A model generated the notes under the pieces. It was not told where the DNA came from. It ran no database searches and saw only the letters and a list, made by a program, of their open reading frames with translations. Both the position numbers and the translations under genes were made by a program. Positions 21,106 to 40,431 of a DNA stretch of 64,000 bases are shown piece by piece. Within the stretch, counting starts at the first letter, position 1. Every line of letters starts with the position of its first letter. The stretch lies in contig NZ_JACNML010000005.1 in assembly GCF_020005365.1 (NCBI RefSeq), positions 62,001 through 126,000 of the forward strand. The letters are read 5' to 3'. The DNA is from Kangiella shandongensis. Its GTDB lineage: Bacteria; Pseudomonadota; Gammaproteobacteria; Enterobacterales; Kangiellaceae.

Positions 21106-22002
21106 TTAATCTTCTTCGATACCTAAATGTTGTAAGATACCATCCAACTCATCCAAGCTATGGTAATTAATCACCAAGTTACCTTTGCCCTTATTGCCAT
21201 GGTTAATATTAACCGTGGCGCCAATTTTGTCGGCCAACCGTTGCTCCAGGGCCACAATATGGTGATCTTTCTCAGCCTTTTTGGGCTTCTTCTTCGGTTC
21301 ATTAATGTTACGGATCAGTTTTTCCGTCTCGCGCACCGTCAAACCTTTCTGCACCACCGTTTTTGCCGTATCAGACTGCTGAGTACCATCTAGCGCCAAC
21401 AAGGCCCGGGCGTGGCCCATCTCCAGATCACCGCGCTCAAGCAGGGTTTTACAGGGCTCCGTAAGCTGCATCAGGCGGAGTAGATTGGTCACCGTGGTGC
21501 GACTTTTACCCACGGCATCAGCGGTTTGCTGGTGCGACAGCTTAAACTCTTCTTTGAGACGGTGCAGCGCATTCGCTTCTTCCATGGCATTGAGATCTTC
21601 ACGCTGAATATTCTCAATCAAGGCCATGGCAATCGCAGCTTCATCCGGCACTTCTTTAATTAAAACAGGAACCTGATGTAACTCAGCCCGTTGCGCGGCA
21701 CGCCAGCGGCGCTCACCGGCAATGATTTCATAGAGTTGTTTGCTGATCGGACGGACCACAATCGGCTGGATCATACCCTGCGCGCGGATCGAGTCAGCCA
21801 GCTCATCCAGACCTTCTTCGGTCATAACGCGACGTGGTTGGTATTGACCGGGTTGTAAAAACTCTATCGGCAATTCCTTAAGCAAGCCATCCTGCTCCAG
21901 CAGCGAGTCAGCCGCTTCCGAGCTGGAAGCCTGTTTTACCGATTTGCTGCTACTCGAACTCAACAGCGCATCCAACCCTTTGCCCAAACCTCGTTTACTC
22001 AT
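21106..22002 (-). CDS. parB: Chromosome partitioning protein ParB
   Basis: ParB binds parS sites near the origin, spreads as a CTP-dependent clamp and directs origin segregation with ParA. Order of parts: a basic N-terminus (MSKRGLGKGLDALLSSS), the CTP-binding motif region with IIAGERRWRAAQRAEL, the helix-turn-helix (LSHQQTADAVGKSRTTVTNL), a lysine-rich linker and a C-terminal dimer domain. Length is 298 residues. The gene is 32 bp after parA. Two perfect parS palindromes are found 15 kb away inside recF. Confidence 0.98.
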   Translation of the reverse strand: MSKRGLGKGLDALLSSSSSKSVKQASSSEAADSLLEQDGLLKELPIEFLQPGQYQPRRVMTEEGLDELADSIRAQGMIQPIVVRPISKQLYEIIAGERRWRAAQRAELHQVPVLIKEVPDEAAIAMALIENIQREDLNAMEEANALHRLKEEFKLSHQQTADAVGKSRTTVTNLLRLMQLTEPCKTLLERGDLEMGHARALLALDGTQQSDTAKTVVQKGLTVRETEKLIRNINEPKKKPKKAEKDHHIVALEQRLADKIGATVNINHGNKGKGNLVINYHSLDELDGILQHLGIEED

Positions 22003-22034
22003 GAAAAATCCTCTAAGTTCCTGACTGTCGTCAA

Positions 22035-22805
22035 TTAGGCTGCTTGACGACGTTTAATAATTTCTCCGGCCAATGCCAAATACGCTTTGGAGCCGTTAGA
22101 GCTGCGATCATAAAACAATACGGGAACGCCATGACTGGGTGCCTCTGCCAGACGTACATTTCGTGGTATCACTGTGCGATAGACCTTATCGGCAAAGTGA
22201 CTGAAGAGCTGACGCGACACCTCGAGGGATAAACGGTTCCGTGGATCATACATGGTGCGTAAAATCCCTTCGATCTGTAGATTCGGGTTTACGTGTTCCT
22301 GCACCTGACCAATGGTATTCAATAAGGCCGACAACCCTTCCAGCGCATAATACTCACACTGCATCGGGATAATCACCGAATCCGATGCTACCAGCGAATT
22401 CAACGTCAGCATATTGAGTGAAGGAGGGCAGTCAATCAGAATATAGTCATATAGATCTTCGATTCGCTGCAAAGCTTTTTTCAAGCGCTGCTCTTTATCG
22501 TCAAACTCGAGTAGATGAACTTCGGCGGCTGTTAAATCCCCGTTAGAAGGTAGCACGTCATAACCGGCAACGTTCGAGGTCACAATATGGCTCTTGATTT
22601 CTTCGGGTTCCATTAAAGAGTCATAAGTAGATAATTCCAAATCTGACTTTTCGATACCGGAGCCCATGGTGGCATTACCCTGTGGATCCATATCAATCAT
22701 CAACACTCGTTGATTTTCTTGAACCAGCGACGCCGCCAGATTCACACTCGATGTCGTTTTACCGACTCCACCTTTTTGATTGGTAATGGCAATAATGTAA
22801 GCCAC
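22035..22805 (-). CDS. parA: Chromosome partitioning ATPase ParA
   Basis: ParA is the DNA-binding Walker ATPase that moves ParB-parS complexes. The deviant Walker A motif is NQKGGVGKTTSSVNLA, Walker B lies in YDYILIDCPPSL. I start at GTG 22805 (256 aa, beginning V/M-AYIIAITNQ), which has GAGGTG 5 nt upstream; the frame reaches a TTG at 22817, but that codon overlaps the ribosome binding site. It follows rsmG by 20 bp, so rsmG-parA-parB is probably one operon. Confidence 0.97.
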   Translation of the reverse strand: MAYIIAITNQKGGVGKTTSSVNLAASLVQENQRVLMIDMDPQGNATMGSGIEKSDLELSTYDSLMEPEEIKSHIVTSNVAGYDVLPSNGDLTAAEVHLLEFDDKEQRLKKALQRIEDLYDYILIDCPPSLNMLTLNSLVASDSVIIPMQCEYYALEGLSALLNTIGQVQEHVNPNLQIEGILRTMYDPRNRLSLEVSRQLFSHFADKVYRTVIPRNVRLAEAPSHGVPVLFYDRSSNGSKAYLALAGEIIKRRQAA

Positions 22806-22825
22806 GAAACACCTCAAATTTGCTG

Positions 22826-33430: not shown

Positions 33431-34250
33431 CTGCTTAACCCAATCAACAGTTACTTCTACACATAGCGAAACGCTACGTGACTCAAGGACGCGGAATTTT
33501 ATAGGAATTATAAGACGAATGCAATGCTCTGAGCCCTGTTTTTTCAAGGGTTTGCTGCAATAATTCCGCATTTTACTTATTTAGTGCTCGTCAGGGCACA
33601 GGAATACCACATCTAGTGTTTTTTAGATAACCTCTTTCCAGGAGGTGTGGATAACTTTAACACAATAATTGAAAAGATCTAATAGGAAAAACCTATAAAA
33701 ATAAGAAAAACTGGGCTTTCGAGCAGAAAGCCTCAAAATAAAGCTATTATCTTTTTATTTTTAATCCAATCTGAACAAGTTGTCGTGTAATAAATATAAA
33801 TAAATATTTAAAGATCTTATTATTATTATTAGTCAAGCTGTTTTCTGTTGATAACTCTTTTTTATTATATAATTTCAAAAGCTTATCAAAATGATAAACC
33901 CGTTAATTAATTGTCTTTAAGCTAGTGTTTAAATATTTAATAAGTGTTGTTTTTTTACATTTTAGGCTCTTTTGCACAGTTTTTTGCTTTTTTTATACCT
34001 TATTTAATAACAGATTGTTCTTTTGGGCGGTGTTTGTTTTGCTTTTGTGTAATTAGTCCCCGATCCTGGTTTTGATACGGTTGACCTATATTTTAATATT
34101 TTTCCTAAAACTGTGGATATTTAGTTCATATGGATCTACACTAGCCTGACGCTGTGGAAAAACAGAAGGGTATCCTTAACATTAGCCAATTTTCTATGGT
34201 ATGTCGTTTTTTAAAACAATATAATAATCAAGGACTTGGAAGCTATTACT
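33431..34250. other. oriC: Probable chromosomal replication origin oriC
   Basis: This gap of about 800 bp holds no gene and is very AT-rich, especially 33660-34020. A consensus DnaA box (TGTGGATAA) lies at 33646-33654, with one-mismatch forms at 33846-33854 (TGTTGATAA) and 34112-34120 (TGTGGATAT) and a weaker TGTGGAAAA at 34153-34161, all in the same orientation. The run at 33787-33835 (ATAAATATAAATAAATATTT followed by GATCTTATTATTATTATTAG) is a good candidate unwinding element. Transcription diverges here, rpmH leftward and dnaA rightward, as at gammaproteobacterial origins of the Pseudomonas type. Promoters of rpmH and dnaA must also lie inside. Confidence 0.85.
33714..33732 (-). terminator. 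Hairpin at the left side of oriC, terminator-like leftward
   Basis: GGCTTTC and GAAAGCC flank a 5-nt loop. Read leftward, it is followed after three bases by TTTTTCTTATTTTT. It could stop transcripts leaving the origin leftward before rpmH, but the T run is not immediate. Confidence 0.35.
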
Positions 34251-35657
34251 ATGTCCAATAGCATCTGGCGTAACTGCCTACAACGATTACAATCTGAGTT
34301 ATCGGTTACCGAATTCAATACTTGGATAAAACCATTGCAGGTTCGAGAGACAGATAAGGAAATGGCTCTATTTGCGCCAAATCCTTTCTTCGTTGACTGG
34401 ATACGACAGCAATACCTCGATCGAATTACTGAAGTTGTGAGCAGCAAATCTGAGCAGGCTCAACTGCAAATATCATTGCATGTTGGTAATGCGCAAATAG
34501 AAACAGTCAGTAGGCAACCTGCGGCTACGCCATCAAAAAGTAATGGTACGAATGGTCATTCCGCTTCCGGTCAGTCCATGGCTAATGCTTCTGGAGCTAA
34601 CACCAACTTCAATCAGGTAGCGAAGTCGAGTTTTCCTCAGAATAATCTCAATAATAAGTTTACTTTCGGTAACTTTGTTGAAGGTAAGTCTAACCAGCTA
34701 GCGCGGGCCGCCGCCGAACAGGTCGCTGAAAATCCCGGCATCTCGTATAATCCGTTACTGATCTATGGCGGTGTTGGTCTCGGTAAAACTCACCTGATGC
34801 ACTCGGTGGGTAACTTGATTCTTAATGACAAGCCGGATTCCAAAATTGTTTACCTCCATTCTGAGCGTTTTATGGCTAATATGGTTAAAGCGCTACAGAG
34901 TAACAGTATGGATGCCTTTAAAAATTATTACCGTTCGGTGGATGCGCTTCTAATTGATGATATTCAGTTTTTTGCCAACAAAGGGCGGACTCAGGAAGAG
35001 TTTTTCCATACTTTCAATAACTTAATTGAAAAGAATAAACAGGTTATTATTACCTGTGATCGTTATCCCAAAGAAATTGAGGGGCTGGAGGAAAGGTTAA
35101 AATCACGCTTTGGTTGGGGACTAACGGTCGCTATCGAACCGCCGGATCTGGAAACGCGAGTGGCTATTCTAATGAGTAAAGCCAATCAGTCTAAAATCGA
35201 GCTGCCGCATGAAGTTGCTTTCTTTATTGCAAAACGCATCCGCTCTAATGTACGTGAACTGGAAGGCGCGCTAAAGCGAGTTATTGCCAACGCTCAGTTT
35301 ACCGGCCGTGCCATTACCCTGGACTTTGTAAAAGATGCTTTAAAAGATTTGATTGCTGCGCAAGATAAACTGATATCCATTGATAATATTCAAAAAACTG
35401 TCGCCAGCTATTACAAGATTAAAGTTTCTGATCTATTATCTAAGAGGCGTAGCCGCTCTATTACTCGGCCGCGTCAGATGGCTATGACGTTAGCTAAAAA
35501 ATTAACCAATCATAGCTTGCCAGAAATCGGGGATGCATTTGGCGGTCGTGATCACACTACGGTATTACATGCCTGCCGAAAAGTTGACGAATTAAAAAGT
35601 GAAAGTGTTGATATTGAAGAGGATTACTCTAATCTATTAAGAACACTATCAACATAA
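34251..35657 (+). CDS. dnaA: Chromosomal replication initiator protein DnaA
   Basis: DnaA binds oriC boxes and melts the origin. Domain I is at the N-terminus ([23 protein letters not shown]), domain II is a Ser/Asn-rich linker (about 85-135), domain III is the AAA+ ATPase with Walker [16 protein letters not shown] and Walker [12 protein letters not shown], and domain IV ends with the DNA-reading signature [19 protein letters not shown] at 34251 gives 468 residues (E. coli 467); the frame also opens at a TTG five codons upstream. GGAAG lies 8 nt before the ATG. It heads dnaA-dnaN-recF-gyrB. Confidence 0.99.
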
Positions 35658-35694: not shown

Positions 35695-36798
35695 ATGCGT
35701 TTTACCATTACACGGGAACAGTTATTAACACCATTACAATCGGTTAGTGGCGCGGTCGAAAAGCGTCAAACGTTACCAGTTTTATCCAATGTTTTAATGG
35801 TGGTTGACGATAGTAAGCTCTCACTAACTGCTACTGATTTGGAGATTGAGCTCAAAGCGCATGTGGAGCTTGAAGGGGAGTTCGAACCAGGAGAAATTAC
35901 AGTTCCTGCGCGAAAATTACTGGATATCATTAAAAGTCTGGGGGATGGAGAAAGCGTCAAAATTGAGATGGGTGAAAATCGTTTGCGAATTACCACTCCA
36001 GGCAGCCGCTTCAATCTGTCGACCATGCCAGCCAATGAATTCCCCAGCCTTGAAGAAACTGCTAGTCTGGCGTCGTTGAATGTGTCACAGCATACCTTAA
36101 AAGAATTGATTGAAAAAACACAATTCGCTATGGCGCAGCAAGACGTTCGTTATTATCTTAACGGAATGTTATTTGAGTTTGATGAAGATAGTTTGACCTC
36201 GGTGGCTACAGACGGACATCGCCTGGCGCTGTCAAGGGAAGCCGTTAAACTCGAGTTGGATGAACGTGTCAATGCCATTATCCCGCGTAAGGGCGTGGCA
36301 GAGCTTGGTCGCCTGTTAGAACACTCAGAAGACGATATCACTTTAAGCCTTGGCTCAAACCATATAAAAATAACCGATTCGGGTTATTCCTTTACCTCTA
36401 AACTGGTGGATGGTCGTTTCCCTGAATATGATAAGGTGCTGCCGAGAAACGGTGATAAAGTTGTCATTGCGGATCGAGAAGTATTAAAGGAGTCTCTGTC
36501 GCGAGCATCTATTCTCTGTAATGAAAAGTTTCGTGGCGTTCGCTTCATGTTATCCAATGGACAAGTACGCTTGCATGCTAACAATCCCGAACAAGAAGAA
36601 GCCGAAGTCGAATTCAGTGTTGAGTACCAGGGGCCGGATCTCGAAATTGGATTCAACGTCAGTTATATGATCGATGTTATGAATACCATTAAAACGGATC
36701 AGGTCAAGCTGACTTTTATCGATGCCAATAGCAGTACTCTGATAGAAGAGGTTGATGGCGGCGAAAGTATGTATGTCGTTATGCCGATGCGACTTTAA
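35695..36798 (+). CDS. dnaN: DNA polymerase III subunit beta (sliding clamp)
   Basis: The clamp encircles DNA and tethers polymerase. The start MRFTITREQLLTPLQSVSGAVE, the block RRTLPVLSN-like KRQTLPVLSNVLM, and the C-terminal YVVMPMRL (pocket for clamp-binding peptides) are standard. The 367 residues match E. coli (366). It lies 37 bp after dnaA. Confidence 0.99.
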   Translation: MRFTITREQLLTPLQSVSGAVEKRQTLPVLSNVLMVVDDSKLSLTATDLEIELKAHVELEGEFEPGEITVPARKLLDIIKSLGDGESVKIEMGENRLRITTPGSRFNLSTMPANEFPSLEETASLASLNVSQHTLKELIEKTQFAMAQQDVRYYLNGMLFEFDEDSLTSVATDGHRLALSREAVKLELDERVNAIIPRKGVAELGRLLEHSEDDITLSLGSNHIKITDSGYSFTSKLVDGRFPEYDKVLPRNGDKVVIADREVLKESLSRASILCNEKFRGVRFMLSNGQVRLHANNPEQEEAEVEFSVEYQGPDLEIGFNVSYMIDVMNTIKTDQVKLTFIDANSSTLIEEVDGGESMYVVMPMRL

Positions 36799-36857: not shown

Positions 36858-37964
36858 GTGCACATTCATCAATTATCTCTTTCCAATGTGAGAAACCTGG
36901 AGCAAACCTCCATGGATTTCTCACCTCGGCTCAATATTATTTATGGTCCCAATGCCGCCGGAAAAAGCAGTATTCTTGAGGCGTTGTATTTATTGGGCAA
37001 TGGCCGCTCTTTCCGAACAAGCAAACATAGCAAAGTTATTGCTGACAACGAACAACAATTAACCCTGTTCTCACGTTTGAACTCCTGTGGCGTAAATCAT
37101 CAGCTTGGCGTGTCGCGTAACCGTAGTGGCGATGTCACTATCAAGCTCAACACTGAGTCGGTTAAACAACTTTCCCGTTTAGCAAAGTTATTCCCAACCG
37201 AGCTTCTGTCACCGGAGCAGTACGACTTATTGGTGAAGGGCCCAAGCGGTCGACGCAAACAGTTGGACTGGGGAGTGTTCCACGTGGAACATTCTGTCCT
37301 TGGTTTGTGGCAAAAGAGTCATAAGCTCCTACAGCATCGGAATCAGTTGCTGAAGCAAAGAGCACCTTATAGTGATGTTGCTGTCTGGGATAAGCAGTTA
37401 GTTGACTTATCCACACAAGTTACTCAACTTCGGCGGCAGTATTGTGATAAAATAAGGCCTTTATTTAAACAGTTAAGTCAGCGCTTTTTAACAGGTTTGG
37501 ACGTCGATATTGATGTCTACCCCGGCTGGTCGGATAAAGACGAGCAGGGGTTAGAAACCCTTTATAAGGTTCAGTTTGTTAAAGATCAGCAACTGGGTTT
37601 TACCCAGTCAAGCATTCATAAAGCTGATTTAAAGTTTTACATTGATGAGAAGAAGAAGGCCGGAGATTATCTTTCTCGCGGTCAGCAAAAACTGTTAATA
37701 ACCGTTTTTAAGCTTGCTCAATTACAGGCAATGCAGCAGTTCGGGCAGCAGACACCGGTATTCTTATTAGATGATATTGGTGCAGAGCTGGATACCCGTC
37801 ACCAGGAAGCTCTGCTCAACGTATTGGCGGAGCAGCCTCTGGAGCAGCAGATTTTCATCACTTGCGTACATTTAGAACCCCTCAAGGCCTTAATTAGAAG
37901 GTATAATGAGGTCAAAGTGTTCCACGTGGAACATGGGGCTATACAAACAGTGACAGAGCTGTAG
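36858..37964 (+). CDS. recF: DNA replication and repair protein RecF
   Basis: RecF is an SMC-like ATPase that loads RecA at gaps with RecO and RecR. Walker A is IIYGPNAAGKSSILEALY, the signature motif is DYLSRGQQKLLITVFKLAQ and Walker B is VFLLDDIGAELD. Length 368 aa (E. coli 357). The start is GTG at 36858. The gene carries two perfect parS palindromes (37276-37291 and 37918-37933), both encoding the peptide VFHVEH, and a consensus DnaA box at 37407-37415. Confidence 0.98.
   Translation: MHIHQLSLSNVRNLEQTSMDFSPRLNIIYGPNAAGKSSILEALYLLGNGRSFRTSKHSKVIADNEQQLTLFSRLNSCGVNHQLGVSRNRSGDVTIKLNTESVKQLSRLAKLFPTELLSPEQYDLLVKGPSGRRKQLDWGVFHVEHSVLGLWQKSHKLLQHRNQLLKQRAPYSDVAVWDKQLVDLSTQVTQLRRQYCDKIRPLFKQLSQRFLTGLDVDIDVYPGWSDKDEQGLETLYKVQFVKDQQLGFTQSSIHKADLKFYIDEKKKAGDYLSRGQQKLLITVFKLAQLQAMQQFGQQTPVFLLDDIGAELDTRHQEALLNVLAEQPLEQQIFITCVHLEPLKALIRRYNEVKVFHVEHGAIQTVTEL
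37276..37291. other. parS: parS centromere site 1 (inside recF)
   Basis: TGTTCCACGTGGAACA is a perfect 16-bp palindrome identical to the parS core used by chromosomal ParB in Pseudomonas and related to the Bacillus site. ParB and ParA genes are in the same window. Confidence 0.9.
37407..37415 (+). other. Consensus DnaA box inside recF
   Basis: TTATCCACA matches the strong DnaA box exactly, about 120 bp from parS site 1. A single 9-mer can occur by chance (about 0.5 expected in 64 kb on both strands), so a role is uncertain. Confidence 0.35.
37918..37933. other. parS: parS centromere site 2 (end of recF)
   Basis: A second perfect TGTTCCACGTGGAACA palindrome, 642 bp from the first, in the last 16 codons of recF. 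Confidence 0.9.
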
Positions 37965-37974
37965 GTAGCCCTGA

Positions 37975-40431
<2,457 letters not shown>

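Follow-up and report, generated by a model that had tools for sequence, protein, structure and literature searches.

The chromosome of Kangiella shandongensis is predicted, with a probability of roughly 94%, to carry its parS sites as two palindromes within recF, where selection on the DNA would keep the bases and the hexapeptides of RecF would be largely a by-product. The recF gene (36858..37964, + strand, GTG start; TIGR00611, 331 bits) in the window (the whole stretch of 64,000 nucleotides that was analysed) contains the perfect palindrome TGTTCCACGTGGAACA as candidate parS site 1 (37276..37291, no strand) and the same 16-mer as candidate parS site 2 near the C-terminal end of the protein (37918..37933, no strand), at a spacing of 642 bp. 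Both copies are exactly where a preliminary description of this DNA had placed them, each encoding V-F-H-V-E-H in an identical reading frame, and they are the only matches with up to three mismatches in the window, where the mean expected by chance is 0.31. A count over the whole assembly (2,803,650 bp in 26 contigs), proposed in the same description, gives two perfect copies, both in recF and none elsewhere, and no copies with one or two mismatches; matches with three mismatches number six versus four for a control pattern, i.e., near the control level. Given the peptide VFHVEH, the codon usage of 14 ORFs of the window yields the exact 16-mer with a probability of 0.0082 at one site and 6.7e-5 at the two together. 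The wider parS consensus also fits. Both copies are identical to the sequence given for parS2 and parS3 of Pseudomonas aeruginosa in the accessible text on that organism, and thus have the form of a 16-bp parS palindrome.

On the evidence of the sequence, this pair of 16-mers is almost certainly the set of parS sites of the host chromosome, given that the genome encodes ParB, a ParA-like protein and SMC and that oriC lies approximately 3-4 kb from the pair. The presumed reader of the sites is the ParB/Spo0J family protein encoded by parB (21106..22002, - strand; TIGR00180, 193 bits), which matches solved ParB/Spo0J chains and, with residue numbering mapped onto the host protein through a chain offset of 10, retains seven of the eight parS-contact residues named in the accessible part of PMC7383237, Q162 being replaced by H. 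Between parB and rsmG is a gene for a parA-like ATPase (22035..22817, - strand, TTG start as listed), of which the ORF matches ParA-family models, with a top score of 110.8 bits (E 6.3e-32) and none of the matches reaching the curated cut-off of its model. The parAB pair had been reported at 21106-22805 and is present, but its end is placed at 22817 here, the choice of start codon being different. SMC is encoded in the genome (1108.6 bits), and MukB has no match in it.

The gene layout is parB, the parA-like ORF, rsmG and mnmG on the left and dnaA (34236..35657, + strand), dnaN (35695..36798, + strand), recF and gyrB (38005..40431, + strand) on the right, with dnaA, dnaN and gyrB assigned by profile match and rpmH, near the probable oriC, named by eye. 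The probable oriC region (33572..34235, no strand, limits approximate) is the gap before dnaA, which contains an exact DnaA box (33646-33654); cumulative GC skew reaches its minimum in the 30-34 kb windows. The skew minimum and this DnaA box place oriC approximately 3-4 kb from both recF sites, which are thus clustered near the origin. The only other exact DnaA box in the window (TTATCCACA, 37407-37415, in recF) had been remarked upon between the two palindromes; it is there, but the aligned place carries a box in one of 19 recF genes of the genus, that of the host, so it is probably due to chance and a link to parS was rejected. The preliminary picture of a centromere within recF, 3-4 kb from oriC, holds for the sites, parAB and the distance, with binding of ParB predicted by homology; its description of recF as an essential gene is not supported, recF being generally non-essential.

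The homology in question is to P. aeruginosa, for which the accessible portions of three papers state that parS1 and parS2 are "within the recF gene" (PMC5521831), that ParB sits on parS1-4 in ChIP-seq (PMC5098823), that amino-acid-preserving changes of parS lower ParB binding, and that any one of parS1-4 suffices (PMC4368675). Since ParB binding in vivo and disturbance of segregation upon loss of sites are reported for P. aeruginosa in the parts available (PMC4368675, PMC5098823), homology argues strongly that the host sites would likewise bind ParB and function in segregation. As far as the accessible descriptions of P. aeruginosa PAO1 go, its parS1 and parS2 resemble the host sites in their location within recF, in the 16-mer of site 2, which is identical, in their distance of approximately 4 kb from oriC and in the position of parAB across oriC from them; they differ in that both host copies are perfect whereas parS1 of PAO1 ends in C, and in that the host has recF sites only whereas PAO1 adds parS3 and parS4 outside recF. 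PAO1 itself is outside the alignment of relatives, but of the 24 named Pseudomonas recF loci, 19 have a pair of the PAO1 type (site 1 ending ...GGAACC, site 2 ending ...GGAACA) at the host's two codon positions; the remaining loci comprise two in which both sites are perfect and three in which site 2 is perfect but site 1 has decayed (TGTTCCACGTCGA..). The 16-bp parS sites near oriC of Bacillus subtilis and Caulobacter belong to the same palindrome family as the host sites, which would be read by a ParB of the same family, but differ from them in location: the host sites are within recF, and a search with one mismatch allowed gave no site in any of 28 recF genes sampled from the phylum's other classes. 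The location of parS within recF is therefore already known from Pseudomonas, is not peculiar to this host and is widespread in the class sample, and as a centromere the pair is ordinary. The fixing of two codon positions across the class and the imprint on the RecF peptide were not found in the literature searched, although Livny 2007 may note recF sites widely; the evolutionary side, overlapping selection with the protein following the DNA site, is instructive and perhaps unreported.

The comparison set consisted of 251 recF genes, one per genome: 19 from the genus (host included), 104 from the order and 128 from the class. A RecF match was found in 19 of 20 genomes of the genus, all of which were analysed (the remaining genome is 55% complete), in 111 of 119 genomes of the order, of which all 104 outside the genus were analysed, and in 228 of 276 genomes of the class, of which 225 are outside the order and 128 were analysed; the 97 class genomes left out are mostly lower-scoring (78, plus 19 more), so the class figures favour RecF proteins like that of the host. 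The other classes are represented by the recF genes (20 fetched and 8 loci) of 28 out of 90 genomes, not sorted by ParB state. Among the best named RecF loci listed is that of a Kangiellaceae metagenome-assembled genome (L258), at 40% identity. The relatives' sites were scored against TGTTYCACGTGRAACA, and the 251 genomes were labelled as 222 with ParB (100 families) and 29 without ParB (10 families), absence meaning no match or weak matches only (E 9e-8 to 3e-24) to one ParB query. Absence in some genomes of the order was assigned by elimination (seven no-match genomes), such that a very divergent ParB could escape, and presence was assumed for genus members G392-G404 (13 of the 19, minus those in the order sample).

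Within the genus, every genome with a recF match (19 of 19, five of them single-contig assemblies) has exactly two sites within one mismatch of the pattern, both in recF. This observation bears on the possibility that the recF sites bind ParB but are minor, with the working centromere elsewhere in the genome, for which may be cited the parS3 and parS4 sites that the accessible P. aeruginosa text places outside recF, and the draft state of the host assembly. That possibility is very unlikely, given two recF sites and no others in all of these genomes and the failure of the search for further parS sites within two mismatches in a host genome estimated to be 99.98% complete.

Among the 222 recF genes of genomes with ParB, site 1 is exact in 106 and within one mismatch in 151, and site 2 is exact in 149 and within one mismatch in 191. 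At least one site within one mismatch is found in 206 of these genes, both sites in 136 and neither in 16, and 93 of the 100 families have at least one site-bearing member; when the genus is set aside, at least one site remains in 187 of 203. The 29 recF genes of genomes without ParB have no exact copy at either site, and within one mismatch none at site 1 and three at site 2. In the order outside the genus, at least one site is present in 72 of 80 genes with ParB versus 2 of 24 without, but site 1 is mostly absent despite ParB (within one mismatch in 23 of 80), which implies that it is dispensable there. Of the 80 named loci, which were not sorted by ParB, 49 have site 1 and 67 have site 2, so that 46 carry the two together, 70 carry one or more and 10 lack both; six named recF genes of Shewanella and Vibrio (L257, L267, L289, L292, L295, L303) have CAT as the H codon of site 2 (one mismatch) and no site 1. 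In the 28 recF genes of the other classes, neither the two places nor the rest of the fetched stretch holds a site within one mismatch, so that the recF location characterizes Gammaproteobacteria as far as this sample goes.

Of the 16 genomes with ParB in which alignment revealed no recF site, one (G384) is an artefact, its recF ORF being split with a perfect site near the end, and in 14 the genome contains one or more sites with no more than one mismatch. The latter number weighs against the idea that the pair is a regulatory site of the dnaA-dnaN-recF-gyrB operon rather than a centromere, being what is expected if the site is needed somewhere and not in the operon specifically. Excess ParB in P. 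aeruginosa does lower the expression of the neighbours of parS1-4, but genes beside the intragenic parS1 and parS2 were not raised in parB-null or parS-null strains, according to the part of PMC5521831 that is accessible, and a purely regulatory role is accordingly hard to credit. One family with ParB and no recF sites (f160) includes a genome with nine parS-like sites of one mismatch each, several of them approximately 180 bp apart (G277:C3:54284-56366), an apparent parS array judging by this spacing and number; the remaining four genomes of the family that were searched have 3, 5, 10 and 11 parS-like sites. In genomes without ParB, the pattern within one mismatch occurs eight times in 7 of 29 genomes, three of the eight being site 2 of recF, and the reversed control occurs three times; the single parS-like sites elsewhere in these genomes may be due to chance. 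The three at site 2 of recF, each one mismatch from parS (G283:C1:3423-3438, G370:C10:93856-93871, G249:C1:326093-326108), could be fossil centromeres, or a product of chance plus constraint on F-x-V.

The preliminary description had supposed that codon choice at the two sites is constrained at the level of DNA, and the comparison of relatives supports this. Where the peptide FHV[EK] is present in genomes with ParB, its codons are CAC-GTG-RAA for H, V and E/K in 151 of 162 genes at site 1 and in 181 of 198 at site 2, versus expectations of 16.6 (sd 3.8) and 19.8 (sd 4.2) calculated from each gene's own codon usage, site codons included. At site 1, 158 of 162 genes have G as base 2 of the palindrome, as do 197 of 198 at site 2, and the palindromic mate, base 15, is C equally often (again 158 and 197 genes), while several different residues are encoded at these bases (in front V, M, L, W, R, T, K or A; behind H, Q, P or R); thus it is the base that is kept and not the residue. 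A V, M or L in front of FHV[EK] is always encoded by NTG at site 2 (173 of 173 genes) and nearly always at site 1 (156 of 160), ATG being the only codon for M. Free synonymous variation in close relatives, which had been named as an observation that would speak against the sites, is not seen: at both sites, the codons for H, V and E do not differ at all among the 19 genes of the genus, versus just 2 uniform columns among the 105 conserved degenerate codon columns outside them; the F codon is TTC in 18 and TTT in one at each site, and no invariant stretches of recF are longer than the two site cores. Diversity as low was reached in 0 of 100,000 residue-matched draws, for which each residue had just 2-4 columns to draw on. 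At site 2, the opening codon, which has its first base outside the palindrome, varies in the genus (L, V or M). Association with ParB, codon fit and invariance within the genus all indicate evolutionary constraint on the DNA site.

The opposite arrangement, in which the hexapeptides are kept for a need of RecF and codon preference yields the palindromes incidentally, is scarcely probable, being largely contradicted by codons fixed far above the expectation from usage, including the NTG codons in front. It draws on residues that do appear to belong to RecF: F141, H142, F355 and V357 are invariant in an alignment (A1) of 12 sequences that includes one from a genome without ParB, all four are common in genomes without ParB (F and H of site 1 in 26 and 22, respectively, of 29), and FHVE is found at site 2 in 2 of 28 RecF proteins of other classes (L374, with six mismatches to the site, and L375, with four), so that FHVE at site 2 can arise without parS. 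Nevertheless, residue 4 of site 1 is V in none of the 29 genomes without ParB, FHV at site 1 is found in none of the 28 RecF proteins of other classes, and the complete FHV[EK] peptide, found in 162 of 222 (site 1) and 198 of 222 (site 2) genomes with ParB, is found in 0 of 29 and 3 of 29, respectively, without it. Thus the earlier suggestion that FHVE was already common in RecF at these places and permitted the site is not supported beyond F-H at site 1 and F-x-V at site 2, the peptide-first reading is mostly rejected by the codon data and the genomes without ParB, and the relation between peptide and site seems for the most part to be the reverse of that suggested, with most of the peptide imposed by the DNA site. 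At site 1 of genomes with ParB, parS (up to one mismatch) and peptide occur together in 150, neither in 59, the peptide alone in 12 and the site alone in one; at site 2 the corresponding numbers are 190, 23, 8 and one. Because the peptide necessarily results from a perfect site, what is informative is how few peptides lack a site; these 12 and 8 peptides with at least two site mismatches, together with L374 and L375, imply that peptide and site are not coupled in every case. On a FastTree tree of RecF with the site columns removed, ParB state changes approximately five times, the sequences being related; the three supported independent pairs of genomes with and without ParB, too few for a sign test to reach significance, agree or tie where seen, none being opposite.

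The favoured reading, that the recF palindromes are parS sites held by selection on the DNA, can be framed as a pathway. ParB of this family is a CTP-dependent clamp. It would load onto the two parS sites in recF, spread across the region near oriC and hand the replicated origins to ParA and SMC. The sites would be in recF because this position was adopted early in Gammaproteobacteria, and selection on the DNA site, not on RecF, would hold the bases, so that the hexapeptides [VML]-F-H-V-[EK]-[HQ] would be largely a by-product of parS. The share of RecF itself would be F-H (site 1) and F-x-V (site 2), the remainder following the DNA, with residues that track the palindrome (V, M or L from NTG; H or Q from CAN), and the conservation of RecF at both places would be mostly conservation of DNA. 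An early origin of the recF sites and the direction of cause, from DNA site to peptide, are what we infer from the distribution of sites and codons, and the comparison suggests that the DNA sites dictated part of the RecF sequence. It is quite probable that parS settled at these two codon positions of recF early in the history of Gammaproteobacteria and has stayed there, writing two hexapeptides of RecF, and that the peptide decays after loss of ParB, with some genomes without ParB keeping a decayed site 2.

Strong conservation of amino acids can stem from a DNA-binding site located in a gene, and residues of RecF that look functional may be by-products of a centromere. Lineages with and without ParB amount to a natural experiment on overlapping constraints on DNA and protein. 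Engineered parS insertions in Caulobacter have a hot spot at recF-gyrB, according to the accessible part of the report, which is an independent hint that parS favours recF, and a genus in which every parS site found is in one coding sequence offers a simple system in which to ask why.
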